Origin: Gemmatimonadales bacterium
GTDB lineage: Bacteria > Gemmatimonadota > Gemmatimonadetes > Longimicrobiales > Gaopeijiaceae
DNA length: 38,375 bases
Reading direction: 5' to 3'
Assembly: GCA_007692665.1 (NCBI GenBank)
Contig: REBP01000123.1
Coordinates: 1 to 38,375 of the forward strand
The notes beneath the pieces were generated by a model that saw only the letters and a list, made by a program, of their open reading frames with translations, was not told the DNA's origin and searched no databases. This document shows, one piece after another, positions 4,645-35,620 of the stretch (positions are counted from its first letter, which is position 1; each line of letters starts with the position of its first letter). The translations under genes and the position numbers were made by a program.

Positions 4645-7059
4645 ATGAAGACCTATTCCGACCCGGGTGAGCAGGACCCACGGCGCCGGCGCCCGGACCG
4701 CATCCCCCAGGACCCCTACCTCGCCTGGCTCGAAGGGGCGCTGGAGGAAGGGAAGGCAGACCTGCGCGAGCGGATGAAAGAACTCTCCTGCCTCTTCGCG
4801 GTGGACCGCGCGCTTCGTCGAGGCGACCCCGAGTGGCGAGTCTCCCTTCAGGAGGTTGTCGATGTGCTCCCCTCCGGGTTTCGTCTGAACCCTGCCCCGG
4901 GAGCCCGCATCCGGCTCGGCACCGAGGAGGTGGTCACGAGCGGGTTCCGGTCCACGGAGTGGAACATGACCCGGCGCATCGTGGCCGACGACAGGGAACT
5001 CGGCGAGGTCGAGGTCGCCCGCTCCCGTCCGCCTCCGGGTGGGGACGCGCCGTTCTCCCTGGAGGAAGCCAACCTCTTCGCAAGCGTGGCCGATCGCCTG
5101 GGCGAGGCCATGGGGCGCATCCACGCCGAGGAAAGCCTCCGGCAGGGCGAGATGTTTCAGAGGGCACTGATCCGTGCCTCGCCCATCCCCCTCTTCAGCA
5201 TCGACACCGAGGGCTCGGTCGTCGTGTGGAACCCGGCGGCGGAACGGGTCTTCGGGTGGTCCTCGGAGGAAGTCTGCGGAAATCCCCTTCCCATCCTGGG
5301 CGAGGCCGATACCGAGGCGTTCATCGGGATGAGGCGCCGCGCCGCCGACGGCGAGACCCTCACCGGCGTTCCGTTCACCTGCCACCGGCACGACGGGAGC
5401 CCCGCCCCCGTGCTGCTCTCCATCTCCCCGGTACGGCTCCCCTTCGACGACGCGGGGCCCCGGGCCATTCTCTTCGCCGTCCAGGACCTGGACGACGCGG
5501 AGAGCGTCGAGAAGACGAACCGGCTCCAGGCGAGGCTCCTCGACTCCGTGGGGCAGGCGGTCATCGCCACCGACCTGGAGGGGCGCATCACCTACTGGAA
5601 CAGGGCTGCCGAGTCCATCTACGGCTGGCCTTCCACCGAGGCGCTGGGCCGCGACATCCTTGACCTGGTCCCGTCCGTGGAGGCCCACCGCGAGGCGGGA
5701 GAAGTCATGGAAACCCTCCGGAGGGGCGAGCGGTGGACCGGCCGGATGGAGGTGCGGCGGAGGGACGGCTCGACCTTCCCCGCCCTCGTCACCAACGCGC
5801 CGATCCACGATGCGCACGACCGCCTCGTGGGCGTGGTCGGCGTGTCCACGGACATCAGCCAGGTCCGGGAGCTTGAGGCCCAGCTCCGCCATTCCCAGAA
5901 GATGCAGGCGCTCGGGGGCCTGGCGGGTGCCATCGCCCACGACTTCAACAACCTGCTGACGGTGATCCAGGGACACACCGAGATGCTCGCGCACGACCTT
6001 CCCCGGAACTCCCTCTTCAGGGAAGACATGCAGGAGATCATCGCCGCCACGCACCGCGCCACGCGGCTGACACGACCCCTTCTTGCCCTGAGCCGCCGAC
6101 AGGTCATGGAAGAGATCGTTCTCGACCTGGGCAAGTCGCTCGCCGACATCGAGCCCCTCCTGCGGCGGCTGATCCCCAGCCGGATCCAGGTCGAGGTGAA
6201 CCTCGTCGGGAAACGGGCAACGGTGTACGCCGATCCCTCGCAGGTGGACCAGGTCATCATGAACCTGGTGGTGAATGCCGTGGATGCGGTGAAGGGGGTG
6301 GGAGAGATCCGGCTCGGCGTCGACCGGTGCACGATCACCCCCGAATCCGCGGTCACAGGCCCCTGGGAGGCACCGCCGGGAACCTACGCCCGCCTCACCG
6401 TGGCGGACACGGGCGAGGGGATGACCGCCGACCTCGCGGAGCGGGTCTTCGAGCCCTTCTTCACCACGAAGCCGCCGGGGCAGGGAACCGGGCTCGGGCT
6501 GAGCACGGTCTTCGGGATCGTGAAGCAGGGGCGGGGGCACGTCCTGCTGACCTCCGAGCCGGGCGAGGGCACCACCTTCGAGATCCTCTGGCCCCTCGTC
6601 GAGGCCCCCGGCGCTGTCGAAAGCGCCGCGAAGGCAGGCGCCGGGAACTCCTCCGGGAGCGGCCGCGACCGGGACGAAATCCGCCTGACGGAGGGTGCCG
6701 CCACGGTACTCGTCGTGGACGACGACCCCGGGTTCCGTGCCGTGGTCCAGCGGATGCTGGAGCGGTCGGGCTACCGGGCCGTGACCGCCACCAACGGTCG
6801 GGAAGCCGTCGACATGCTCAGCGGGGAAGCCGAAGGTATCGTGCTGGTTCTGAGTGACGTGGTGATGCCGCTGATGGGAGGCTCCGCCCTCCTCGAGTAT
6901 CTCGAGGAGACAGGCCCCGGGGTCCCCATTGTCCTGACGTCGGGCCATCCCGACCGCGAACTCCCCGAGGACGTCCGCCGCCGGGCAGCCGGCTTTCTCC
7001 GGAAGCCCTTCGGTCCGGCAGGGCTGCTCCGGGTCGTTCGCGAGGCACTGGACAGGTGA
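4645..7059 (+). CDS. Hybrid sensor histidine kinase (GAF-like-PAS-PAS-HisKA-HATPase-REC)
   Basis: 804 residues, soluble. The N-terminal part (about 40-165) resembles the GAF-like module found at the head of many kinases (LFAVDRAL, a hydrophobic strand set, then a coiled helix). Two PAS domains follow (about 170-290 and 295-415). The dimerisation helix carries H432 in AIAHDFNNLL, the type usual in hybrid kinases. The HATPase domain has an N box (NLVVNAVDAV), G1 (DTGEGM), an F box (FEPFFTTK) and G2 (GTGLGLSTV). The receiver has the acidic cluster at 692-694, phosphoacceptor D738 in VLSDVVMP and K787 in FLRKPF, all intact. The start is set at 4645 by AGGAG at 4636-4640. A related kinase follows in the same direction after 185 bases, so the two may share signals or transcription. 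Confidence 0.92.
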   Translation: MKTYSDPGEQDPRRRRPDRIPQDPYLAWLEGALEEGKADLRERMKELSCLFAVDRALRRGDPEWRVSLQEVVDVLPSGFRLNPAPGARIRLGTEEVVTSGFRSTEWNMTRRIVADDRELGEVEVARSRPPPGGDAPFSLEEANLFASVADRLGEAMGRIHAEESLRQGEMFQRALIRASPIPLFSIDTEGSVVVWNPAAERVFGWSSEEVCGNPLPILGEADTEAFIGMRRRAADGETLTGVPFTCHRHDGSPAPVLLSISPVRLPFDDAGPRAILFAVQDLDDAESVEKTNRLQARLLDSVGQAVIATDLEGRITYWNRAAESIYGWPSTEALGRDILDLVPSVEAHREAGEVMETLRRGERWTGRMEVRRRDGSTFPALVTNAPIHDAHDRLVGVVGVSTDISQVRELEAQLRHSQKMQALGGLAGAIAHDFNNLLTVIQGHTEMLAHDLPRNSLFREDMQEIIAATHRATRLTRPLLALSRRQVMEEIVLDLGKSLADIEPLLRRLIPSRIQVEVNLVGKRATVYADPSQVDQVIMNLVVNAVDAVKGVGEIRLGVDRCTITPESAVTGPWEAPPGTYARLTVADTGEGMTADLAERVFEPFFTTKPPGQGTGLGLSTVFGIVKQGRGHVLLTSEPGEGTTFEILWPLVEAPGAVESAAKAGAGNSSGSGRDRDEIRLTEGAATVLVVDDDPGFRAVVQRMLERSGYRAVTATNGREAVDMLSGEAEGIVLVLSDVVMPLMGGSALLEYLEETGPGVPIVLTSGHPDRELPEDVRRRAAGFLRKPFGPAGLLRVVREALDR

Positions 7060-14348: not shown

Positions 14349-15526
14349 CCCGTATCGCGCTGCAGCGGTGCGACCGCTTCGTGGGGCGCACGATGAACTG
14401 GATGTACGATCACCTGCTGGCCCTGCCCAGGTATCGGCCGCTCGTGCTCACCGATTCCCTGGAGAACCGGTCCGAGTTCCCTGAACTCGAGGCGTGGCCC
14501 TGGAACCAGGAGACCCTGGCAAGGCGCGCATGGAGAAGGGTCGGCGGACGTCGTCCCTTTCCGCTGGATCTCAGCCGGCTCCGCGGCCGCGACCCCGCGC
14601 TCCTGCACAGCCACTTCGGATGGGTGGCGGCGGGAGACCATGACCTCCGCCAGGCGCTGGGTGTGCCGTGGGTCGTCGGGTTCTACGGGGCGGATGTGCA
14701 CGAACTACCCGCTCGACCGGAGTGGCTGGATCGCTATGAACGGGTTTTCGCCGAAGCGGCGTGTGTGCTCCCCCTTGGACCCCACATGGCCAGGCGACTC
14801 GAGGAACTCGGCTGCCCGGCGGAAAAGGTCATTGTCCACAACCTCGGGGTGGATGTGGGCGCACTGGCATACAGCCCCCGCACCCGCGACCCGGGCCAGC
14901 CTCTCCGCATCCTCTATGCCGGGACCTTCCGCGAGAAGAAGGGCGTTCCGGACCTCATCGAGGCACTGCACCTGCTCCATGCGGACGGCGTGCCGGTCCA
15001 TCTCGACCTGGTGGGAGACGCCACCCCCAAGCCGGGAGATGCGGAGATCAAGGTCGAGATCCTGGCCGGGATCGAGCGCTGGGGGCTCGAGGGCATCGTG
15101 ACCCGCCACCCCTTTCTCCCCTTCGGCGAACTCGTGGAACTGGGGCGCCGCTGCCATGTCCTGGCGACCCCGAGCGTCACGGCAGCCTCGGGAGACTCCG
15201 AGGGCACCGTCTTCATCATCCAGCAGATGATGGCCACCGGAATGCCGGTGGTGGCAACCCGGCACGCCGACATCCCCTACACCTTCGGGGCGATGGGGGA
15301 GCACCTGGTGCCCGAGCGGGATCCGGAGGCCCTGGCGGGGGCTCTCCGGCGCTACGTGGACGACCCTGAGGCACTGGAGGACGACGGGCGGCGCTTCCGC
15401 GTTCATGCCGAGGAAACCCTCGACATCAACGTATCGGCGGCCTCCCTGGCGCGAATCTACGACCGGGTGGTCGAAGGGGTTTCTCCCGTCACCGACGGTG
15501 GAGCGGCCATCGCCACCCCTGCCTGA
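14345..15526 (+). CDS. Glycosyltransferase family 4 (GT-B fold, WcaL-like)
   Basis: 393 residues. The C-terminal Rossmann half is typical of GT4: RILYAGTFREKKGVPDLIEAL, a HPFLPFGELVELGRRCHVLATPS stretch, then GDSEGT and a Gln-rich helix where the family places its E-x7-E motif. The GDSEGT form recalls colanic-acid-type transferases. The N-terminal half contains LLHSHFGW and FYGADVHEL. It should transfer a sugar from a nucleotide donor to a lipid-linked or sugar acceptor at the inner face of the membrane. The ATG overlaps the stop of a 38-codon ORF and has no Shine-Dalgarno sequence of its own. Its last 70 bases overlap the end of the convergent GT39-like gene, and both C-terminal tails there are low in complexity. 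Confidence 0.9.
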   Translation: MTRIALQRCDRFVGRTMNWMYDHLLALPRYRPLVLTDSLENRSEFPELEAWPWNQETLARRAWRRVGGRRPFPLDLSRLRGRDPALLHSHFGWVAAGDHDLRQALGVPWVVGFYGADVHELPARPEWLDRYERVFAEAACVLPLGPHMARRLEELGCPAEKVIVHNLGVDVGALAYSPRTRDPGQPLRILYAGTFREKKGVPDLIEALHLLHADGVPVHLDLVGDATPKPGDAEIKVEILAGIERWGLEGIVTRHPFLPFGELVELGRRCHVLATPSVTAASGDSEGTVFIIQQMMATGMPVVATRHADIPYTFGAMGEHLVPERDPEALAGALRRYVDDPEALEDDGRRFRVHAEETLDINVSAASLARIYDRVVEGVSPVTDGGAAIATPA

Positions 15527-17196
15527 GCGGGGGCGAGAAGCGGAGAACACTCGTCCGGCCGTGCCTCGAAGCCGGCGCCGTGATCCCATTCGAAGGCGAC
15601 CACGCGCCAGCCCTCTGCCAGCGGGACCCTTCGGGCCAGTTCCTCGATTCGATCTGCCACCAGGTCAGGGACGGACCAGGCCTGTCGCCAGTGGTTCCGC
15701 TCAACCAGAATGAGCCCGCTCCGCCGGCACGCCACGACCATGTCGACGGTCTCGGGACGATGGATCATCGGGGTGCCCGTCTTCCAGTTCCGGGTGAATT
15801 CCGGCCGGGGGGTTCCGGATCGGTCCTGGTCGAGGTAGTTCACGGAAAGAACGAGCTCGCCCCGGCCGAGGAAGTACTGGGCCTTCTGCTCCGTCGAGAC
15901 GACCACGACGTCCGCGCCGCTGATCTCGTCCTCGAGTTCCCGTGCAACGGCGCCCCAGTCGGCTTCCCCGCGGTAGAGAACGGGGAAGGGCCAGCTCGCA
16001 TCCGTGCCGCCGATCATCCGGGCCGAGTACGGGAAGGCCGAGTTTCCCCAGGCGGCGAAGAGGAGCGAGAGGGTGAGGAGCCCCACCCCGGCCCCCATGG
16101 CGATCCGGCGGCTCCCGGCGCCGATGATCCCTTCCACGCCCCGGGTGAACTCGGCCAGAAGCCACCGGAGGAGGGGTCCCACGACCACCCCGGTCAGCGC
16201 GAAGAAGAAGGGCAGCACGTAGAAGATGTACCGTTCAGCCTTCCACGCGCTGACGGAGTGGACCGTGAAGACCAGCGCGAAGACCAGCAGCCAGAGCGAG
16301 GAAAGCGAAGGCTGACGACGCAGCGCCAGGAGGGCGATGATCGGGAAGGAGGCCCAGAGCAGCGGGTAGTGCGACAGGAGATGGTCGTGGTAGAACCTGA
16401 AGTTCGAACGGTGGGCATCGGCCCAGAGGTCCACCTGGTCGAACATTCCGATGGCCCGGTACCCGAATCCCGAAAGGTGGAGCCAGGCAGCGGCCCCGAG
16501 CAGGAGGGCACCGAACCCGAGAACGGTGGCTGCCGGCCGGGTTCGGTGGATTCCGATGCGGATGACTCGGAAGCCGAGCGCCCCGACGAACCAGATTCCG
16601 ATGGCGCCGAGGCCCACCAGGGAGCTGAACTGAACCGAGAGGGCACCCCAGGCGAGCACGAGCCCCCCGAGGAGAAGGAGGGGGGCGGAGCGAGAGCGCC
16701 ACGACGGGAGTTCCACGAGTCGCCACGCACACCATGCGACCCCCAGCAGGTAGAGGGCCTGGAACGAGTAGAACCGGGTGAGCTGGGAGTGGTAGATCGC
16801 CTGCGGCGCGAGCATGAGCAGGATGCCCGCGGTCCAGCCCTCCCACCGACCGAAGGCCTGGCGGACCCAGAGGAAGACGGCCACCACGAGGAGCGTACCG
16901 GCGAGCACCGACGGAAGCCGTGCTGCGGACAGGTTTTCGCCGAAGATCGCCATGCTTCCGGCGACCATCCAGGTAAAATGGCGAGCCCGCAGATACTCTG
17001 CGCCGCTGTCGAGAAGCAGGGACCCCTCGCGGAGCAGGGAGCCGGCGGCGATGACGTGGTTCATCTCGTCCACGAACGGCGTGTGATCCAGGTTTGCCAG
17101 CCGAACCAGGAGCGCCAGCAGTCCGATCGCACAGGCCTCCGCGACCGGGAACCCCCGGGCGTCGGCCGTCACCGATTTTCCTGGAGCGACCCTCAC
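15457..17196 (-). CDS. GT39-like integral membrane glycosyltransferase
   Basis: 579 residues with about ten hydrophobic helices, followed by a soluble C-terminal part (from about 400). The acidic pair D43-E44 in TPFVDEMNHV, in the first loop after helix 1, matches the catalytic Asp/Glu of the PMT/ArnT-type (GT-C) fold. Such enzymes use polyprenyl-phosphate sugars as donors and act on the outer face of the membrane. GTG start at 17196 overlaps the stop of the preceding gene as GTGA, so translation is probably coupled. It is third in a minus-strand cascade after two GT2-type genes; the first of these looks able to make a polyprenyl-phosphate sugar, which this enzyme could then use. The acceptor is unknown. 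Its 3' end overlaps the convergent GT4 gene by 70 bases. Confidence 0.87.
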   Translation of the reverse strand: MRVAPGKSVTADARGFPVAEACAIGLLALLVRLANLDHTPFVDEMNHVIAAGSLLREGSLLLDSGAEYLRARHFTWMVAGSMAIFGENLSAARLPSVLAGTLLVVAVFLWVRQAFGRWEGWTAGILLMLAPQAIYHSQLTRFYSFQALYLLGVAWCAWRLVELPSWRSRSAPLLLLGGLVLAWGALSVQFSSLVGLGAIGIWFVGALGFRVIRIGIHRTRPAATVLGFGALLLGAAAWLHLSGFGYRAIGMFDQVDLWADAHRSNFRFYHDHLLSHYPLLWASFPIIALLALRRQPSLSSLWLLVFALVFTVHSVSAWKAERYIFYVLPFFFALTGVVVGPLLRWLLAEFTRGVEGIIGAGSRRIAMGAGVGLLTLSLLFAAWGNSAFPYSARMIGGTDASWPFPVLYRGEADWGAVARELEDEISGADVVVVSTEQKAQYFLGRGELVLSVNYLDQDRSGTPRPEFTRNWKTGTPMIHRPETVDMVVACRRSGLILVERNHWRQAWSVPDLVADRIEELARRVPLAEGWRVVAFEWDHGAGFEARPDECSPLLAPAQAGVAMAAPPSVTGETPSTTRS

Positions 17197-18212
17197 GCGG
17201 AGCTCGTCGGAACGGTGGGGGACGTCAGATCCGCTTCGGGGGATGAAGGTTCGATGGGGGGCGTTCCGCCGGGCGGAAAGATCTCCCGGACCCGCTTCTC
17301 GCGGCCCGTCGGGGCGTTCACGTGCACGATGATCTCCCCTACCAGCCCGATTGCGAAGGCCTGGATCCCCATGACCACCAGGAGCGCTCCGAGGAGGAGC
17401 ATGGGTCGATCCGCCAGCGCCTGCCCCTGGATCCGCTGTACCGCGAGAACGACCAGAATGATCGCGCCCGCGAGGAAGGAACCGGTCCCGAGCAGGCCAA
17501 AGAATCGAAGCGGCTTCTCGGTGAACCGCATCAGGAAGAGGAGTCCGAACACGTCCAGGACCCGGCGGACGTAGATCCCGGGGGCGTAGATCCGGGGCTG
17601 CCAGTCCCCCCGGTGCTGTGCCGCGTCCACCTCCACGACCTCGAAACCGGCACGGAGTGCGAGGAGGGGGAGGAAGCGGTGGAAATCCCCGTACATGGGG
17701 AGCACCTCGAAGGCGTCGCGGCGGATCGCCCGAACGCCACAGGCCACGTCATGGATCTGCCGCCCGCCGCCTACCGCGGAAACAAGTCCGTGAAAGACCC
17801 GGTTCTGCAGACGGTTCAGCACGGAATCCCGCCGTGGCCATCGACGTGCGATCGACATGGCGGCGTTGTCCTCGACCACCGGCCGAAGCACGGCGAGGAG
17901 CGCGTCGGCCTCGATCCGGTAGTAGGCCGGGAGTGTCAGGAGGACGTCATGCGACGCCCGCTCCGCGCCCACGCGGAGGAGGGCCGTGTCTCCACCGGCG
18001 AGACCCATTCGGAGGATCCTGATGGGCTCTCCCTCCGCCTGGAGCCGCTCCAGCGGCGCAAGACGGTCGAGGTAGTGCGGTTCCGCGATGAAGAGGAACT
18101 CGAAGGTCAGGCCCGCATCCCGAAGCGGTGCCGAGAACTCGGCGTACAGTTCCGCCAGCGGCTCGGGCCGCTCAGTGACGGGGACCAGGACGGATACCGC
18201 GACCTTCTTCAT
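17193..18212 (-). CDS. GT2-fold protein with degenerate active site, two C-terminal membrane helices
   Basis: 339 residues, clearly a paralogue of the next gene upstream on this strand: the two align from residue 1 almost without gaps to about 100. The catalytic signatures are gone here. Where the paralogue has LIDDGSTD (41-48) this has FIAEPHYL, and where the paralogue has TMDGDLQ (93-99) this has TLPAYYR, so the nucleotide-binding Asp residues and the DXD are all replaced. The fold and the two C-terminal helices (about 240-262 and 275-297) with a polar tail remain. It may be a non-catalytic partner of the active enzyme, or it may use another mechanism. The start at 18212 overlaps the paralogue's stop (ATGA), with AGGGGAG about 11 bases upstream. 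Its own stop overlaps the GT39-like gene (GTGA). Confidence 0.85.
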   Translation of the reverse strand: MKKVAVSVLVPVTERPEPLAELYAEFSAPLRDAGLTFEFLFIAEPHYLDRLAPLERLQAEGEPIRILRMGLAGGDTALLRVGAERASHDVLLTLPAYYRIEADALLAVLRPVVEDNAAMSIARRWPRRDSVLNRLQNRVFHGLVSAVGGGRQIHDVACGVRAIRRDAFEVLPMYGDFHRFLPLLALRAGFEVVEVDAAQHRGDWQPRIYAPGIYVRRVLDVFGLLFLMRFTEKPLRFFGLLGTGSFLAGAIILVVLAVQRIQGQALADRPMLLLGALLVVMGIQAFAIGLVGEIIVHVNAPTGREKRVREIFPPGGTPPIEPSSPEADLTSPTVPTSSA

Positions 18213-19177
18213 GCCCGCTGTTCTCCCCTTCGCCCGCTTCGGGTGGGATGGACCAGGAGTGAGGAGACGTCGATGCGGCGCCTCGCGTGGAAGACTGCCG
18301 ACTCGGCCACCAGGCCGAGCATGACAAGATACACGCCCAGTCCGACCATCAGGGCCGTGATGCTGGGGAGGACGATGGCGTTCTCTCCGGAGACCAGGGC
18401 CGGCGTCAGGGAGAGCGCACCGAAGACACCCGCCACGAGGAAGGCCCAGAGTCCCGCGGCCCCGAAGAGGATCAGCGGGCGGTCGCGAAAGGACCGGATC
18501 GTCGTGATGACCAGGAGATCCGACAGGACCTTCCAGGTCCGCGAGAGACCGTACTTGCTCGAACCGACGCGTCGGGCGTGATGGCGCACGGGGATCTCGG
18601 CCACGCGGGCGCCCGCCGTGGCCACGGCCACGGCCGGGATGAAGCGGTGCAGGTCGGAATACAGGTGGAGGCGTTCGACCAGCTCCCGCCGGTAGGCCTT
18701 GAGAGAACATCCATTGTCGCGAATGGGGACCCCCGTCAGCTGGCGGATGAGACGATTTGCGACCCACGACGGGACCTTCCGGGTCAGAAGGTGGTCCTGC
18801 CGGTTCTTCCGGTACCCGGTCACCAGGTCATGGCCGTCCTCCAGGGCGTCCACCAGCGCCGGGATGTCGGCGGGATCGTTCTGCAGGTCGCCGTCCATGG
18901 TGACGACCACGTCCCCGCGGGCCCGGTCGAAGCCGACCTGAAGCGCGGCCGTCTGGCCATAGTTCCGGCCGAGTCTGATGACGCGGACCCGGGGGTCCCG
19001 TCGTCCCGCTTCCTCGATTTCCTCCGGGGTGGTGTCGGTGCTTCCGTCATCGATGAGCAGGAGTTCCCATCCGCCCCCGGGCCCCAGTGCCGAGCGGACC
19101 GCCTCCACCAGCGGGAAGACGTTCCCCGCCTCGTTGTAGAAGGGCACGACGACGGAGATGGTCGTCGCCGGGTTCAT
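18209..19177 (-). CDS. GT2 glycosyltransferase, DPM1/GtrB-like with C-terminal membrane helices
   Basis: 322 residues. The GT-A domain is intact: VPFYNEAGNV near 11-20, DDGS at 43-46, metal-binding DGD at 95-97, TGYRKNRQD and the GCSLKAYRRE block. Two hydrophobic helices at about 230-255 and 265-290 anchor it. Enzymes of this layout move a sugar from a nucleotide donor to undecaprenyl or dolichyl phosphate at the inner face of the membrane. This fits with the GT39-like enzyme two genes downstream, which would use such a lipid-linked sugar outside. A poly-G ribosome-binding site (GGGGGGG) ends 3 bases before the ATG. First sure gene of the three-gene minus cascade; a doubtful small ORF overlaps its start. 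Confidence 0.93.
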   Translation of the reverse strand: MNPATTISVVVPFYNEAGNVFPLVEAVRSALGPGGGWELLLIDDGSTDTTPEEIEEAGRRDPRVRVIRLGRNYGQTAALQVGFDRARGDVVVTMDGDLQNDPADIPALVDALEDGHDLVTGYRKNRQDHLLTRKVPSWVANRLIRQLTGVPIRDNGCSLKAYRRELVERLHLYSDLHRFIPAVAVATAGARVAEIPVRHHARRVGSSKYGLSRTWKVLSDLLVITTIRSFRDRPLILFGAAGLWAFLVAGVFGALSLTPALVSGENAIVLPSITALMVGLGVYLVMLGLVAESAVFHARRRIDVSSLLVHPTRSGRRGEQRA

Positions 19178-22975: not shown

Positions 22976-23854
22976 ATGCAGAAACTTGTGGTGATGCTCA
23001 TGCCCTACTTCGGCCGATGGCCCGAGTGGATCGACATCTATCTGGAGACCTGTCGATGGAACCCGGCGATCAGCTTCGAATTCTTCACCGACTGTGGTCC
23101 GCTCTCGTGTCCGCCACCACCCAATGTCAGGATGCACCGGATGACGCTGGACGAGTTCAACCGACGCTTTCGAGCCTGCTTTCCTGAACACGCCGGTGCC
23201 TCCACCCCCTACAAGCTCTGCGACCTTCGTCCGGCCTACGGCGCGATGTTCCCCGATCTCATCGAAGGCTCCCCGTTTTTCGGGTGGGGGGACCTGGACG
23301 TCGTGTACGGCGGGCTTGCTGCCTCGATCACGGACGAGATGCGACGCGCAGACATCATCTCCTTCAACGGCGATCACCTTTCCGGGCACCTCACCCTGGT
23401 TCGAACGGAACTGGCTCCGGATCTTCCCGGGCATTTTCCGGGATGGGCCGAGAAGGTGGACCATCCCGCGTACCAGCACCTGGACGAGCCGAAGACGGTC
23501 GCCGGCCTCGACGTCCACGCGCGAGAGAGTTTCAACACGCCGCTGTCACCGCTGAAACCCTGGACGAACGGGCGATTCCGCTTTCCACGGGAGTGGTACT
23601 GGCGCGAGGGCGTGCTGACCAGCGACCTCGATGGACCACGAGAATTCTCGCATCTCCATTTCATGCACTGGAAGGGCGGGGAGTGGCCGCGAGCGTGTGG
23701 CAATGCGCAGTGGGAGGGGCTTTCCCGGGTGGTGAACCTCCCCATCGAGGAAGCGAAGACCGGGTTCCGCGTCAATTCGACCGGGTTTCATTCCTGGACG
23801 GGGGAGCCAGCCCGCCGGTGGTGGAGCCGGCTGCCGTTCAGGTTCGGGACGTGA
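22976..23854 (+). CDS. DUF6625 family glycosyltransferase-like protein
   Basis: 292 residues. It matches the DUF6625 pattern as I know it: an opening MPYFGRWPEWIDIYLETCRW, FFTDCG, PYKLCDLRPAYG, a DLD motif at 106-108 in WGDLDVVYGG, then ISFNGDHLSGHLTLVR. The DLD between strands looks like the metal-binding DXD of a GT-A transferase, so a sugar-transfer role is likely though not shown for the family. No membrane helix. It lies between a GT4 and the deacetylase/methyltransferase fusion, with gaps of 34 and 4 bases, inside the plus-strand glycan array. The ribosome-binding site is weak. Confidence 0.85.
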   Translation: MQKLVVMLMPYFGRWPEWIDIYLETCRWNPAISFEFFTDCGPLSCPPPPNVRMHRMTLDEFNRRFRACFPEHAGASTPYKLCDLRPAYGAMFPDLIEGSPFFGWGDLDVVYGGLAASITDEMRRADIISFNGDHLSGHLTLVRTELAPDLPGHFPGWAEKVDHPAYQHLDEPKTVAGLDVHARESFNTPLSPLKPWTNGRFRFPREWYWREGVLTSDLDGPREFSHLHFMHWKGGEWPRACGNAQWEGLSRVVNLPIEEAKTGFRVNSTGFHSWTGEPARRWWSRLPFRFGT

Positions 23855-23858
23855 CCGC

Positions 23859-25922
23859 ATGACCGGCATGAGCGCCTCCTACAGGATACGACGAAGTGTC
23901 GAGAAGAATGCTCCCGAATTTCGGGCGCTCGCATCGCGCCGGATGCCGGCCTTCGCGGTGCCCTTCGGGCGGGCATCGAACACCGTTCCCGTCTTCTGCT
24001 TCCATGACGTGCAACCGGAGACCTTCGCGGCCCAGCTCGAGTTCCTGCGGGCGAACGGGTACCGGACGCTGGACGCCGACCAGGTGGCCGCGCGCATCCG
24101 GACGGGCGGATCCGACCCCGGGGAGGTCGCACTCTCCTTCGACGATGCCACCTGGACCTTCTGGACCTACGCCTTCCCGCTCCTTCGCGAGTACGGATTC
24201 CAGGCCATCCTCTTTGCCATTCCGACCACGCTCTCCGACGACGAAACCGAGTACCCGACCTGGGACGACCATCGTCGAGGCTCCTGCGGCCGCGAGGAGC
24301 TTGCAGGACGGGGAGGCCATCGCCCCTTCTGCACCTGGGGCGAGCTGAACACCATGCACCGGAGCGGCATCGTGGATGTTCAGTCCCACTCCCTCACCCA
24401 CGTGCGGGTCCCCATCGCTCCCCGGGTTCTCGACTTCGTTCACCCGGGATTCGATCCCTACTACGGCAACTTCGACATCCCGCTCTCCGTTCTCGACGAA
24501 TCCGGCGGGAACCGCCCCGCCCTTCGCCTCGGGGCTCCGCTATTCCGGTCGGCTCCACGTCTTGCCGGGCATCGCCGCTTCTGCGAGGCGCCCGATCTGG
24601 TGGAAGAGCTCACGGCCTTCGTGCGTTCCCGGGGCGGCGTGGAGTTCTTCGCCGACCCCGGGTGGCGCAGCACGTTGCGCGCCATCGTGCGACGCCGGCC
24701 GGCATCCCGGCTCGGTGACCGCGAGACCCGGGAAGAGCTGGCGACAGCCATGCATCGCGAGTTCGCGGAATCCAGGACTCGCCTCGAGCAGGGGGTTTCG
24801 GGAGCGGAGATCCGTCACTTCGCCTACCCCTGGTTCGCCGGGTCGGCACAAGCCGACGGGATCGCGGAAGAAACCGGATACGACGCGGTATTCGGAGGGC
24901 CGGATGTGGACACCGCCGACCGCGAGGGCGCAACGGGACTGCTCCGTGTCCAGCGGCTGCCCGACGGCTACCTCCTTCGCCTTCCCGGCCGCGGTCGGCG
25001 CGCTCTGGGATCCGTGTGGCGGGGTCGAATCCGGGGACCTCGGGTGGAAGAGCGCGGTCCTTCCGACGCCTCGACGCTGGAAACCGCGACGCGGTGGTTC
25101 TACTGGAAGCCGGCCACGGCCTGGTTCCGGAGCCTGGAGCTTCAGGCGTACGAAGCGGCCGCTCCGGAACTCGCGAAACCCCTCCTCGACCTCGGATGCG
25201 GAAACGGACTGGTCGCGCGGATGCTGGCGGAGCGCGGCATCGTGGATCGGCGTGCGCTGTATGGAATCGACCTCCAGCAGCGCGATCTGACCCAGGCCAT
25301 GAACGGGGACCTCCACACGGGCGTTGCGCGGGCGGATGGCCGTCGGCTGCCGTTTCCGGATGCCGCCTTCGGGTCGGTCGTGAGCAACGGCGTCCTGTGT
25401 GCGATTCCGGATGGAGTGGACCAGGTTCTCGAGGAGGTCCTTCGCGTGCTTCGGCCCGGCGGTACCTTCGTCGTGACCGTCCCGACCGATCATTTCGTCG
25501 ACTCGCTCTTCTGGCCGCGAAGCCTCGGGCGTTTCAGCAGCAGGGCCCGCCAGATCTACGTGACCCGCATCAACCGTCGACTGGATCACCACGGCCCCTA
25601 CCATTCGGCCGAGGCATGGTGTCGCCGCCTCGAAGGAAACGGGCTGAAGGTGGACCGGATCGAGGGATTCCTTTCGGGCCGGGCGGGCATCGTCTACAAT
25701 CTCCTGACCATGCATGTGTTCCGGTTCGTCACCGTGCTGCGCTGGTCGCCGGCCTTCCTTCGCTCGGGGGCAGCCGCGCTCCTTCGAATGGCGCTCCGTC
25801 GAGCCTATCTGCGGGAACAGGGGCACCTTCCCCGTCCGGCCTATGTCGTCATCGTCGGGCATCGCGGTCATGGCCCGGGGTCCGCGGGGAACGCGTGGTC
25901 CGCTCCGACGGGCGACGAATGA
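23859..25922 (+). CDS. Polysaccharide deacetylase-methyltransferase fusion
   Basis: 687 residues in one frame. The N-terminal half (about 40-370) is a NodB-type carbohydrate deacetylase fold: FCFHDV (47-51 region), SFDD at 93-96 with the metal-binding Asp pair, and SHSLTH with H177 and H181. The strand that normally ends SFDDG reads SFDDAT. The C-terminal half (about 425-660) is a class I SAM-dependent methyltransferase with motif I DLGCGNG at 444-450, VSNGVLCAIPDG, and VLRPGGTFVVTVP. It probably removes an acetyl (or formyl) group from a sugar and methylates the same or a nearby position. No signal peptide, so it works in the cytoplasm, unlike most cell-wall deacetylases. The stop overlaps the next ATG (ATGA). 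Confidence 0.9.
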   Translation: MTGMSASYRIRRSVEKNAPEFRALASRRMPAFAVPFGRASNTVPVFCFHDVQPETFAAQLEFLRANGYRTLDADQVAARIRTGGSDPGEVALSFDDATWTFWTYAFPLLREYGFQAILFAIPTTLSDDETEYPTWDDHRRGSCGREELAGRGGHRPFCTWGELNTMHRSGIVDVQSHSLTHVRVPIAPRVLDFVHPGFDPYYGNFDIPLSVLDESGGNRPALRLGAPLFRSAPRLAGHRRFCEAPDLVEELTAFVRSRGGVEFFADPGWRSTLRAIVRRRPASRLGDRETREELATAMHREFAESRTRLEQGVSGAEIRHFAYPWFAGSAQADGIAEETGYDAVFGGPDVDTADREGATGLLRVQRLPDGYLLRLPGRGRRALGSVWRGRIRGPRVEERGPSDASTLETATRWFYWKPATAWFRSLELQAYEAAAPELAKPLLDLGCGNGLVARMLAERGIVDRRALYGIDLQQRDLTQAMNGDLHTGVARADGRRLPFPDAAFGSVVSNGVLCAIPDGVDQVLEEVLRVLRPGGTFVVTVPTDHFVDSLFWPRSLGRFSSRARQIYVTRINRRLDHHGPYHSAEAWCRRLEGNGLKVDRIEGFLSGRAGIVYNLLTMHVFRFVTVLRWSPAFLRSGAAALLRMALRRAYLREQGHLPRPAYVVIVGHRGHGPGSAGNAWSAPTGDE

Positions 25923-31952: not shown

Positions 31953-33914
31953 ATGTGCGGAATCTGCGGGAGGATCTCGGGAGCCCCCATCGACCCCGAC
32001 GTCATCCGCGGGATGACCCGGACGCTGGCACATCGAGGGCCGGACGATGAGGGAATCCGGATCGGTGAGGGCTTCGGCCTGGGCCATCGCCGCCTCAGCA
32101 TCATCGACCTCGAGGGTGGCGCACAGCCCATGTCCACACCCGATGGGCTGGTGTGGATCGTGTTCAACGGGGAGATCTACAACTACGGGCCGCTCCGGCA
32201 GGAGCTTCTGAACGCAGGGTTCGCGTTCCGCACCCGCTCCGACACGGAGACGATTCTCAACTGCTATCTCCGGGACGGCACGGACTGTCTCCGGCACCTG
32301 CGAGGGATGTTCTCCCTTGCCATCTGGGACGGCCGCAGTCGACGTCTCTTTGCCGCCCGGGACCGCCTGGGCCAGAAGCCGTTCTACTATTCGCATCGCC
32401 CCGGCGAGTTTCTCTTCGGCTCCGAGATCAAGGCCCTGCTCCACGCGGAACCGGGACTCGCCGAGCTGGACCTCCAGGCCCTGGACGAATACCTGACGCT
32501 CCGCATCGTGGCGTCACCGCGCAGCATGTTCCGCGGCATCCGCAAGCTCCCGCCGGCCCACTTCCTGACCTTCAGCGCTGCTGAGGGCCTGCACGTGGAA
32601 CGCTACTGGGACCTCGCCTACGAGCCCAAGCTGAAGGGCGACGACGAGGAGCTGCTCGAGGAACTCGAACGGCGCATCGTGGAGGCGATCCGCGTTCACC
32701 TGGTCAGCGACGTTCCCGTGGGAGCCTTTCTGAGCGGGGGACTCGACTCGACCCTGGTCGTGGCGCTCCTGATGAAGCACCGGCTCGTGGACCAGCTCCG
32801 GACCTTCTCCGTCAGCCTTCCCCTCGCCGAGTTCGACGAGGCCCCGCTCGCCCGGCTGGTCGCGGAGCGCTACGGCACCCTCCATCGGCAGGAGCAGATC
32901 GTGCCATCGCTGATCCATGATCTGCCCGGCCTCGTCCGGCAGCTCGACGAGCCGTCGGATGCCCTGGCCAGCTGCATGGACCTGGTGGCCGGCATGGCCC
33001 GGAGGGACGTGAAGGTCGTCCTCGGAGGGGATGGTGGGGATGAGCTCTTCGGGGGATACGACCGGTACTTCGGGAACCGGATGGCGGATCGCTATGCCTC
33101 GATACCGGGCTGGATCCGCCGGAAGGTCATCGGCCCGGCGCTTTCCGTGCTTCCCGATGGGCGGTGGTACAAGAGCAGGGGCCACCAGCTCAAGTGGCTG
33201 CATCGGCTGGCCGAACATTCGGGTGGAGAACGCTACGTCCAGGGACTCGCCTATTTCTATTTCCACCAGTCGTTCAAGGACCGGGTCTATGGAGCGCGCC
33301 TTCGAAACGGCGTCACGAGAGAGGGTGCGGGAGCGACCATGAAGGCCGCCTTCGACGGCGCGCCGGCTTCGGACCTCGTGGACCGGATGCTCTATGCCGA
33401 TCTGCAGGCCAGGCTCCCGGACCATCCTGTCATGATCCAGGATCGGATGACCATGGCGCACGGACTGGAGGCCCGAAGCCCTCTCATGGACCATGAACTG
33501 GCGGAATTTGCCGCTCGGCTCCCTCCACGCATGAAGGTGCGGGGGCGGAGGCTTCGCTACGCGCAGACCGAACTTGCGCGCCGAGTGCTTCCGCCACCCC
33601 TCCTCGAGCGAAGGAAGCAGGGCTTCGCGTCCGCACTCCCGTACCTTCTGCGCGACGAACTGGACATTCTGCAGCGGACCTTTCTCCCCACGAGCCGTCT
33701 CGCCCGGGAGGGGCTTCTGGACCAGGGCGGCGTCTCGGCGCTCCTGGGAGAACATCGGCGCGGCGTGGCGGACCATGGCTCCAGGCTCTGGTTGCTCGTG
33801 AACGCCGAGGTGTGGTTCCGGATCTTCATGGAGGGCGCATCGGACGGAGAGCTTCGCGAATCCATCGCACGCACCGCTTCCGACCGAAGCGTCGCAGGGA
33901 CGTCGCTCGCATGA
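31953..33914 (+). CDS. asnB: Asparagine synthase (glutamine-hydrolysing), asnB type
   Basis: 653 residues. The start MCGICG leaves Cys as first residue after Met removal, the glutaminase nucleophile; a GGAAGG precedes it, and the longer open frame from 31902 would mask this Cys. The glutaminase domain (1-210) includes RGPDDEG and FNGEIYNY. The synthase domain has SGGLDST at 261-267 (ATP pyrophosphatase loop), GGDGGDELFGGYDRYF, and the late LEARSPLMDHELAEF block. Members found in glycan clusters usually act as amidotransferases on a sugar acid or precursor and do not make free asparagine. That is likely here by context but not shown. The stop overlaps the next ATG (ATGA). Confidence 0.93.
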   Translation: MCGICGRISGAPIDPDVIRGMTRTLAHRGPDDEGIRIGEGFGLGHRRLSIIDLEGGAQPMSTPDGLVWIVFNGEIYNYGPLRQELLNAGFAFRTRSDTETILNCYLRDGTDCLRHLRGMFSLAIWDGRSRRLFAARDRLGQKPFYYSHRPGEFLFGSEIKALLHAEPGLAELDLQALDEYLTLRIVASPRSMFRGIRKLPPAHFLTFSAAEGLHVERYWDLAYEPKLKGDDEELLEELERRIVEAIRVHLVSDVPVGAFLSGGLDSTLVVALLMKHRLVDQLRTFSVSLPLAEFDEAPLARLVAERYGTLHRQEQIVPSLIHDLPGLVRQLDEPSDALASCMDLVAGMARRDVKVVLGGDGGDELFGGYDRYFGNRMADRYASIPGWIRRKVIGPALSVLPDGRWYKSRGHQLKWLHRLAEHSGGERYVQGLAYFYFHQSFKDRVYGARLRNGVTREGAGATMKAAFDGAPASDLVDRMLYADLQARLPDHPVMIQDRMTMAHGLEARSPLMDHELAEFAARLPPRMKVRGRRLRYAQTELARRVLPPPLLERRKQGFASALPYLLRDELDILQRTFLPTSRLAREGLLDQGGVSALLGEHRRGVADHGSRLWLLVNAEVWFRIFMEGASDGELRESIARTASDRSVAGTSLA

Positions 33915-35620
33915 GGCGTGATCTCACGGCCCTCGAGGGGGTGGAATTCGACCTGGTGGTGATCGGTGGAGGCATCTTCGGGGCCTGTGCGGCCTGGGAT
34001 GCGGCGCAGCGCGGGCTCTCGGTCGCACTGATCGAGCGGTCCGACTTCGGGGCTGCCACCTCCGCCAACTCGTACAAGGTCGTTCATGGAGGGATCCGAT
34101 ATCTCCAGCACGGTGACGTGGCCCGGGTGCGTGCCTCCAGCGCCGAGCGACGGGCGCTGCTCGGCATGGCGCCCCACCTGGTCCGTCCCCTCCCCATCGT
34201 GGTCCCGACCTACGGCTCCGGGATGCGCGGCCGACTTGCCCTGCGCACCGGCCTGGCCCTGTACGATGCCCTGACGCCCGACCGCAACCGGGGGATCACC
34301 GATCGGACAAGCCAGATCCCCTCCGCCCGGATGCTGACCCGATCCGAGACGATTGCGCTCTTTCCCGGGCTCGACTCGGAGAGACTGACCGGCTCCGGGG
34401 TGTTCGCCGACGGCCAGCTGCGGAATCCGCCCCGCCTTGTGCTCGCCATCGTCAGGAGCGCGGCCGCACTGGGCGCGACCCCTGCAAATTACGTGGAGGC
34501 CACCGGACTCCTTCGGCGGGGCTCGAAGGTGGTGGGGGTCGAGGCCAGGGATGTGTTCTCGGGAGCCTCCTTCGAGATCCGCGCCCGCGTCGTGCTCAAC
34601 GCCGCCGGCCCCTATGCGGAAGCGTTTCTCCAGAGGGCCCTCGATCTCCCCCTGAAGCCTCCCGGAAGCTACTCGCGGGATGTCTGCTTCGTCGTGCCGA
34701 AGCCGTGGGTGCATCCGACGCATGCGCTGGCGGTGCAGGGGCGCACCAGGGATCCCGACGCCATCCTCAGCCGGGGCGAGCGACACCTCTTCGTGTCGCC
34801 CTGGCGCGACTCCACGCTCATCGGTACATGGCACCGCGTTCACACCGGTGATCCGGACCGGCTCGAGGTCACCGAAGCCGAACTCGCGACCTTCGTCGCC
34901 GAGGTCAACGGAGCCTACGCAGGTCTCGACCTGAGCCTCGATGACATCTCCATGGTGAACTTCGGGCTGGTGCCCTTCGGCCAGAACCCGGAGGGGGCCG
35001 CCCACCTCCGCTACGGCCACCGGTCGCGGGTGGTGGACCATGGGCCGATGCATGGGGTCGACAACCTGATCTCCCTCATCGGCGTGCGTTTCACGACCGG
35101 GCGCAGGGAGGCGGAACGTGCCGTCGATCTGGTCTACTCGAAACTGGACGCCTCGAAACCGGGGGCCGCCGCCCCCCGCTCCCGGACCATGGAAACGCCC
35201 GTTGCCGGGGGTGAAATCCCTGACTGGCAGGTCCTTCTCGATGCCCTCGAAGCCGATCACTCGCCCTCGGTCAGCCGGGACGACCTTCTCCATCTGGCGC
35301 AGAGCTACGGTACCGAAGCCCCTGCGGTGATGGCGCTCGCACGGCCAGGTGATGGAGATGACCGGCCGGCGCACGCTCCGGCGCTGCTGGGTGCGCAGAT
35401 CCGGTACGCGGTCCAGGAGGAGATGGCCATGACCCTGGCGGACCTCATCTTCCGCCGCACGGACCTGGGTACGGCCCGACACCCCGGAAGGGCTGTCCTC
35501 GAGGCCTGTGCCCGACGCCTCGGAGACGTCCTCGGCCATCCGGCGAGTCGCATGGAACGCGAGATCGCGGAGGTCGAGGACTCCTTCCTGCTCAGGTCCC
35601 CTGGCCGACCGCAGCCCTGA
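33911..35620 (+). CDS. FAD-dependent glycerol-3-phosphate dehydrogenase-like protein (GlpD/GlpA)
   Basis: 569 residues. The FAD-binding GGGIFG is at 19-24, followed by LIERSDFGAATSANSYKVVH and HGGIRYLQHGD, the GlpD/GlpA signature. A middle part has LNAAGPYAEAFL and the substrate region (DNLISLIGVRFTTGRREAE). The C-terminal helical domain is complete, ending near TDLGTARHPGRAVLEACARR. GlpD oxidises glycerol 3-phosphate and feeds electrons to quinone. As the last gene of a glycan array, directly overlapping the asparagine synthase, it may have been recruited to a glycerol-phosphate or similar polyol-phosphate decoration. Its last 29 bases overlap the convergent GT4 gene. Confidence 0.9.
   Translation: MRRDLTALEGVEFDLVVIGGGIFGACAAWDAAQRGLSVALIERSDFGAATSANSYKVVHGGIRYLQHGDVARVRASSAERRALLGMAPHLVRPLPIVVPTYGSGMRGRLALRTGLALYDALTPDRNRGITDRTSQIPSARMLTRSETIALFPGLDSERLTGSGVFADGQLRNPPRLVLAIVRSAAALGATPANYVEATGLLRRGSKVVGVEARDVFSGASFEIRARVVLNAAGPYAEAFLQRALDLPLKPPGSYSRDVCFVVPKPWVHPTHALAVQGRTRDPDAILSRGERHLFVSPWRDSTLIGTWHRVHTGDPDRLEVTEAELATFVAEVNGAYAGLDLSLDDISMVNFGLVPFGQNPEGAAHLRYGHRSRVVDHGPMHGVDNLISLIGVRFTTGRREAERAVDLVYSKLDASKPGAAAPRSRTMETPVAGGEIPDWQVLLDALEADHSPSVSRDDLLHLAQSYGTEAPAVMALARPGDGDDRPAHAPALLGAQIRYAVQEEMAMTLADLIFRRTDLGTARHPGRAVLEACARRLGDVLGHPASRMEREIAEVEDSFLLRSPGRPQP

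Follow-up and report, generated by a model that had tools for sequence, protein, structure and literature searches.

A family 2 glycosyltransferase and its adjacent, very probably inactive paralogue with reciprocal loss of constraint: evidence for a probable two-subunit polyprenyl-phosphate glycosyltransferase

The contig REBP01000123.1 of a Gemmatimonadales bacterium (assembly GCA_007692665.1; 4.23 Mb, 258 contigs, 95% complete) was analyzed over its whole length of 38,375 nucleotides, which is referred to as the window. On the minus strand it carries two adjacent genes for related proteins of glycosyltransferase family 2 (GT2). The upstream gene encodes P0002 and the downstream gene its paralogue P0001, which is called a pseudo-GT2 here; a gene for a glycosyltransferase of the GT-C type follows. 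Each gene overlaps the next by four bases, as ATGA between P0002 and P0001, which suggests translational coupling of the two, and as GTGA between P0001 and the GT-C gene. The features of the locus are as follows (JM, juxtamembrane; TM, transmembrane).

18209..19177, minus strand: P0002, putative catalytic subunit, canonical polyprenyl-phosphate GT2 resembling ArnC and GtrB, 322 amino acids (Pfam, PDB relatives, motif columns)
17193..18212, minus strand: P0001, pseudo-GT2, 339 amino acids, retaining a GT-A fold and two TM helices (PDB search, AlphaFold2, fold matches)
18209..18212, minus strand: ATGA overlap of the P0002 stop and the P0001 start (sequence)
19040..19051, minus strand: DDGS codons, P0002 residues 43-46 (sequence)
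18075..18086, minus strand: AEPH codons replacing DDGS, P0001 residues 43-46 (sequence)
18887..18895, minus strand: DGD metal-binding codons, P0002 residues 95-97 (sequence; D95 and D97 in 56/56 partners)
17922..17930, minus strand: PAY codons replacing DGD, P0001 residues 95-97 (sequence; D in 0/56)
17277..17552, minus strand: JM2/TM1/TM2/tail part of P0001, approximately residues 221-312, the conserved half (half-profile scores, near-invariant columns)
15457..17196, minus strand: GT-C glycosyltransferase (PMT_2, 579 amino acids), third gene of the local operon (Pfam PF13231, 2.1e-9)

P0002 matched the Pfam model Glycos_transf_2 at 6.8e-35, and its best relatives in the PDB were ArnC, at the top, and GtrB. 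Its motifs DDGS, MDGDLQNDP, R123/R126/R133 and R202 occupy columns which vary little or not at all among 56 relatives. Judged by sequence, P0002 is a canonical polyprenyl-phosphate GT2, with a predicted enzymatic product. P0001 is homologous to P0002 over most of its length (29% identity, E 1.7e-21); no Pfam match was obtained for it at a cut-off of 0.01, and among PDB sequences it matched ArnC at 3.7e-15. A preliminary description of this DNA had reported the changes from DDGS to AEPH at residues 43-46 and from DGD to PAY at residues 95-97, and both residues and positions proved exact. It had also held that the frame, the fold and the C-terminal helices of the second copy are intact, which agrees with the AlphaFold2 monomer of P0001 (predicted local distance difference test, pLDDT, 89.4; predicted template modelling score, pTM, 0.81): the model comprises a GT-A domain and a long pair of JM/TM helices, and its tail has low confidence. 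The monomer model of P0002 has a similar plan. The top fold matches of P0001 were dolichol-phosphate mannose synthase (DPMS; Z 23.5, 268 residues, root mean square deviation 7.4), ArnC (9bhc; Z 22.1, 297 residues, 5.0) and GtrB (Z 21.8, 294 residues, 5.4).

Homologous loci were scanned in one genome per species using two C-terminal peptides as queries, so that the distribution obtained is a lower bound. The scan yielded 60 loci, comprising 55 with a pseudo-GT2, four ordinary GT2s of Neomarinimicrobiota and one fragment; the 55 loci and the window together form the set of 56 pairs used below. Going by record titles, the 55 loci include Gemmatimonadota, Planctomycetota, Acidobacteriota, Omnitrophota, Eiseniibacteriota, Rhodobacterales and one genome labelled Deltaproteobacteria, and the Pfam GT2 model was matched by 43 of their pseudo-GT2s. 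Two cultured non-pathogens are among the carriers, Allosediminivita pacifica DSM 29329 (L086) and Planctomycetes bacterium Poly30 (L071). On the genome contigs, the pseudo-GT2 gene is directly preceded in 55/55 cases by a canonical GT2 gene of the same strand, referred to as the partner. Within 59 related genomes, six close orthologues of P0001 (43-78%) were found, all of them directly behind a canonical GT2. The four Neomarinimicrobiota proteins (L080, L084, L091 and L092) were considered as pseudo-GT2s and rejected, being ordinary GT2s which score better as canonical. They combine a canonical DXD with an intact tail like that of the pseudo-GT2s (GLIGEMIVY; L080 at 5959-6897), a combination that may resemble the undivided ancestor, and each is followed by a distant second GT2-like frame.

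The dependence also holds in the converse direction. A pseudo-GT2 was present at E ≤ 1e-60 in 19 of 198 genomes of the class, and a profile of the partners, searched against the same 198 genomes, gave 30 places. All 22 partner-type GT2s with at least 422 bits have a pseudo-GT2 behind them, two of these being contig-end fragments only, of which one (L134) scores just 14 bits. None of the eight matches with 397 bits or less has one. Within this class sample, partner-type GT2s occur only together with a pseudo-GT2.

The changes seen in P0001 are a property of the whole family. At position 95 the pseudo-GT2s carry P in 50/56 and at position 97 Y in 46/56, which gives a conserved replacement motif LPxY at the DXD site, and D was found at either position in 0/56. 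The altered residues are thus conserved among homologues. The partners have D95, D97 and Q99 in 56/56, window included. S46 is kept by 7% and D43 by 4% of the pseudo-GT2s, from which D48, N72, K208 and R213 are lost as well. For the acceptor side, residues of GtrB were mapped onto the pair by a HMMER alignment, with numbering and roles taken from PMC4728340 and PMC5526996; R122 of GtrB is regarded as a ligand of the acceptor phosphate. The acceptor-loop arginine R202 (GtrB R200) is lost in 48/56 pseudo-GT2s, R remaining in eight and G being present in the window copy, while R202 and R123 (equivalents of GtrB R200 and R122) stand in 56/56 partners. Kept in the pseudo-GT2s are R124 (GtrB R122) in 54/56, R127 (GtrB R125) in 48/56 and D155 in 56/56. 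An assignment of D155 to the catalytic acid D157 of GtrB was discarded, since D157 aligns four columns further on. The earlier statement that every catalytic signature is lost therefore stands for DDGS and DXD and goes too far for R124 and D155: as read from the alignment, the pseudo-GT2s have no donor and metal site left and retain part of the acceptor path. The second copies are very probably pseudo-enzymes.

To compare the two halves of the proteins, positions conserved in a reference set of 27 unpaired GT2s were scored as lost in the pseudo-GT2s or in the partners. Of these positions, the pseudo-GT2s have lost 37 in the GT half against 3 for the partners, whereas from JM2 to the tail they have lost only 1 and the partners 12 (Fisher’s exact test, 2e-8, stable across thresholds). 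Profile scores follow the same division. The GT-half medians are 109 bits for pseudo-GT2s, 280 for partners and 320 for unpaired GT2s, and the TM-half medians are 73, 28 and 105 bits, respectively. The TM helices of P0002 are predicted in its model, yet the sequence of the TM half of the partners scores far below that of unpaired GT2s. Locus by locus, the pseudo-GT2 exceeds its own partner in the TM half in 56/56 cases and in the GT half in 0/56. Two further measures are independent of the unpaired set. The ratio of non-synonymous substitution rates (dN) between the TM half and the GT half has a median of 0.82 in pseudo-GT2s versus 2.19 in partners and is lower in the former in 16 of 17 comparisons (p 2e-4). 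Near-invariant columns make up 4.6% of the GT half and 21% of the TM half in pseudo-GT2s, 25.6% and 3.7% in partners, and 13.1% and 7.4% in unpaired GT2s. A tail motif, Y-x-[hydrophobic], occurs in 52/56 pseudo-GT2s and in 3/52 partners. The active copy has kept the whole catalytic site with its own TM half eroded, and the pseudo-GT2 has kept its JM2/TM half with the donor and metal site and the acceptor-loop arginine lost.

When 98 proteins were placed in a tree, the pseudo-GT2s grouped in one clade (Shimodaira-Hasegawa-like approximate likelihood ratio test 99) and the partners in a second one (97), and the branching inside the two clades is broadly mirrored; the unpaired GT2s and ArnC lie outside the partner clade. 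This topology fits a single old duplication whose two copies would have been inherited together, either vertically or by transfer; an independent duplication at each locus was rejected on the ground of the single clade per subunit family. For 19 close pairs the ratio of non-synonymous to synonymous substitution rates (dN/dS) was 0.06-0.20 in pseudo-GT2s and 0.05-0.15 in partners, rough values as the synonymous rate (dS) often exceeds 1, and this indicates purifying selection. Neither drift nor frameshifts were found in relatives. The view of P0001 as a retained pseudo-enzyme, already put forward in the preliminary description, is supported by the absence of any homologue with DXD, by the full-length frames, the conserved replaced residues and the low dN/dS, and by the inheritance of the pair as a unit. 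A decaying duplicate, i.e. a pseudogene in this genome, has only the loss of canonical motifs in its favor and is already refuted, with a probability close to nil, by conservation at 56 loci in several phyla at full length, with low dN/dS and with the same LPxY replacement.

Given the sequence changes, the strict pairing, the purifying selection and the relaxation of opposite halves in the two proteins, we infer a complex, its stoichiometry, a role for the membrane half, a sugar and a product. The two proteins are, with fair probability, both obligate parts of a single hetero-oligomeric polyprenyl-phosphate glycosyltransferase. In this machine the first subunit would perform the transfer, with nucleotide sugar, metal and lipid phosphate all bound by it. 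The GT-A domain of the pseudo-GT2 would pack against the catalytic subunit without binding a donor, and its TM helices, juxtamembrane helix and C-terminal tail would supply the membrane bundle and an inter-subunit bridge, possibly also feeding the lipid, all of which every chain of homotetrameric GtrB or ArnC contributes on its own. The polyprenyl-phosphate sugar would then enter exopolysaccharide or glycolipid assembly, in the window probably via the overlapping GT-C. Such a division of constraint would be expected of a hetero-oligomer, because a paralogue which supplies bundle and bridge frees the catalytic chain to lose them and is itself free to lose its active site. Several points weigh against this assignment. 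A membrane half kept for another partner (flippase, GT-C or polymerase) would give the same pattern of constraint; the pairs behind the dN comparison are not fully independent and their dS is often above 1; the structure models cover monomers only, and the P0001 tail was modelled as a low-confidence helix with no hairpin; and R290 of GtrB is replaced in both window subunits.

An alternative to a joint enzyme would be a pseudo-GT2 acting as a hand-off or export factor, substituting for a GtrA-type flippase; the protein would bind the polyprenyl-phosphate sugar through the kept arginines and the TM helices and deliver it to the other side of the membrane or to a GT-C or polymerase. Consistent with this, R124 and R127, equivalents of the acceptor-pathway residues R122 and R125, are kept while donor-site residues are lost, the third gene of the window operon encodes a GT-C, and GtrA (PF04138) was not found in the 95% complete genome of the window. 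However, GtrA was found in only 4 of the 198 genomes of the class and is rare there with or without the pair, so that an argument from its absence is uninformative and was dropped; moreover, each chain has two TM helices only, a GT-C lies directly behind the pair in few loci, and the acceptor-loop arginine is lost in 48/56. We regard this function as unlikely. Somewhat more doubtful still is a combined version, in which an ancient GT2 duplication would have given a two-gene lipid-sugar synthase with catalysis in one paralogue and membrane and lipid handling in the other, and in which, at its strongest, the pseudo-GT2 bundle serves also as exit route for the lipid-linked sugar, so that synthesis and hand-off form one machine without GtrA.

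GT-A enzymes without DXD exist in other families, and the pseudo-GT2 might accordingly be a metal-independent active glycosyltransferase with a rebuilt site, LPxY in place of DxD, and another donor or acceptor. The conserved P and Y and the invariant D155 speak for such an enzyme, but it is in their GT half that the pseudo-GT2s are loosely conserved (4.6% near-invariant columns), and DDGS, N72, the acceptor-loop arginine, K208 and R213 have been lost mostly without a fixed substitute, which leaves it improbable. Regulation is a common role of pseudo-enzymes, and strict pairing is consistent with an allosteric regulator or stabilizer which contributes no needed membrane part; on its own, however, this leaves the erosion of the membrane half of the active copy unexplained, and we give it an equally small chance. 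The preliminary description had left open whether the second copy is a partner or a regulator of the active synthase. Since one protein is constrained mainly in its catalytic half and the other mainly in its membrane half, partner appears the better supported of the two at the level of sequence, and the hetero-oligomeric glycosyltransferase is retained as the preferred reading.

The neighbors of the pair are largely exopolysaccharide genes. In the window the surroundings comprise GT1, GT2, GT-C, deacetylase/methyltransferase, carbamoyltransferase, epimerase, asparagine-synthase and GlpD-like genes. A DUF6625 protein (2e-35) is encoded at 22976-23854 (plus strand) inside the glycosyltransferase cluster, and a frame of 687 amino acids at 23859-25922 (plus strand) appears to be a fusion of a polysaccharide deacetylase and a methyltransferase. 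The GlpD-like FAD oxidase (DAO and DAO_C) at 33812-35620 (plus strand) belongs to the same cluster as the pair; a gene of this type stands directly behind the pseudo-GT2 at approximately nine other loci, mostly of Gemmatimonadales, and has no obvious role in sugar transfer. Many pairs of Planctomycetota and Rhodobacterales (L066-L083; flanks of L082, L086 and L087) lie near genes for XrtA/PEP-CTERM-associated FemAB, a response regulator and chain length. A PMT_2 match was obtained for 5 of 38 scanned genes downstream of the pair. A fixed operon with a GT-C was rejected as a general rule, as the downstream gene varies (FemAB/GNAT, GlpD-like FAD oxidase, PMT_2, deacetylase, Wzz).

Polyprenyl-phosphate glycosyltransferases catalyze an entry step of extracytoplasmic glycosylation, and how a water-soluble donor is joined with a membrane lipid was named an open question in work on GtrB (PMC4728340). 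A natural split, with the chemistry mainly in one paralogue and the membrane half in the other, would separate both functions genetically and make this question testable. For annotation, second copies labelled ‘glycosyltransferase family 2’ in these loci are probably dead subunits and not extra enzymes. No description of a polyprenyl-phosphate synthase paired with an inactive GT2 was found in the literature searched, which did not cover most subscription journals. GT2 enzymes, pseudo-enzymes and a multi-chain dolichol-phosphate mannose synthase are already known; what appears new is a dead paralogue of full length whose losses and those of its partner are reciprocal in several phyla.

The nearest solved sequence relative of both subunits is ArnC, the undecaprenyl-phosphate 4-deoxy-4-formamido-L-arabinose transferase, which has the same plan of a GT-A domain and two TM helices. 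In ArnC, DXD and an intact membrane half reside in one chain encoded by one gene, whereas in the pair they are divided between two paralogues. GtrB (Synechocystis sll0501) shares the fold, and equivalents of its R122 and R125 are found in both subunits of the pair. It is a homotetrameric polyisoprenyl-phosphate glucosyltransferase, each chain of which contributes two helices to a TM bundle and in which a C-terminal beta-hairpin bridges adjacent subunits (PMC4728340); in contrast to the pair, all four subunits are catalytic. Three-component systems of GtrA, GtrB and a GT-C (PMC11127046) likewise place a polyprenyl-phosphate sugar synthase beside a GT-C, as in the window, but here the genome lacks a detected GtrA, the third component is a pseudo-GT2 and the GT-C is not universal. 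Within eukaryotic dolichol-phosphate mannose synthase, DPM1-DPM2-DPM3, the catalytic GT2 chain depends on other chains for its membrane part (PMC4728340), and in this principle it is like the pair. The two enzymes differ in the nature of the helper, which in the pair is a full-length dead paralogue beside a catalytic chain that retains degenerate TM helices. DPM2 and DPM3 are small membrane proteins and not GT2 paralogues.

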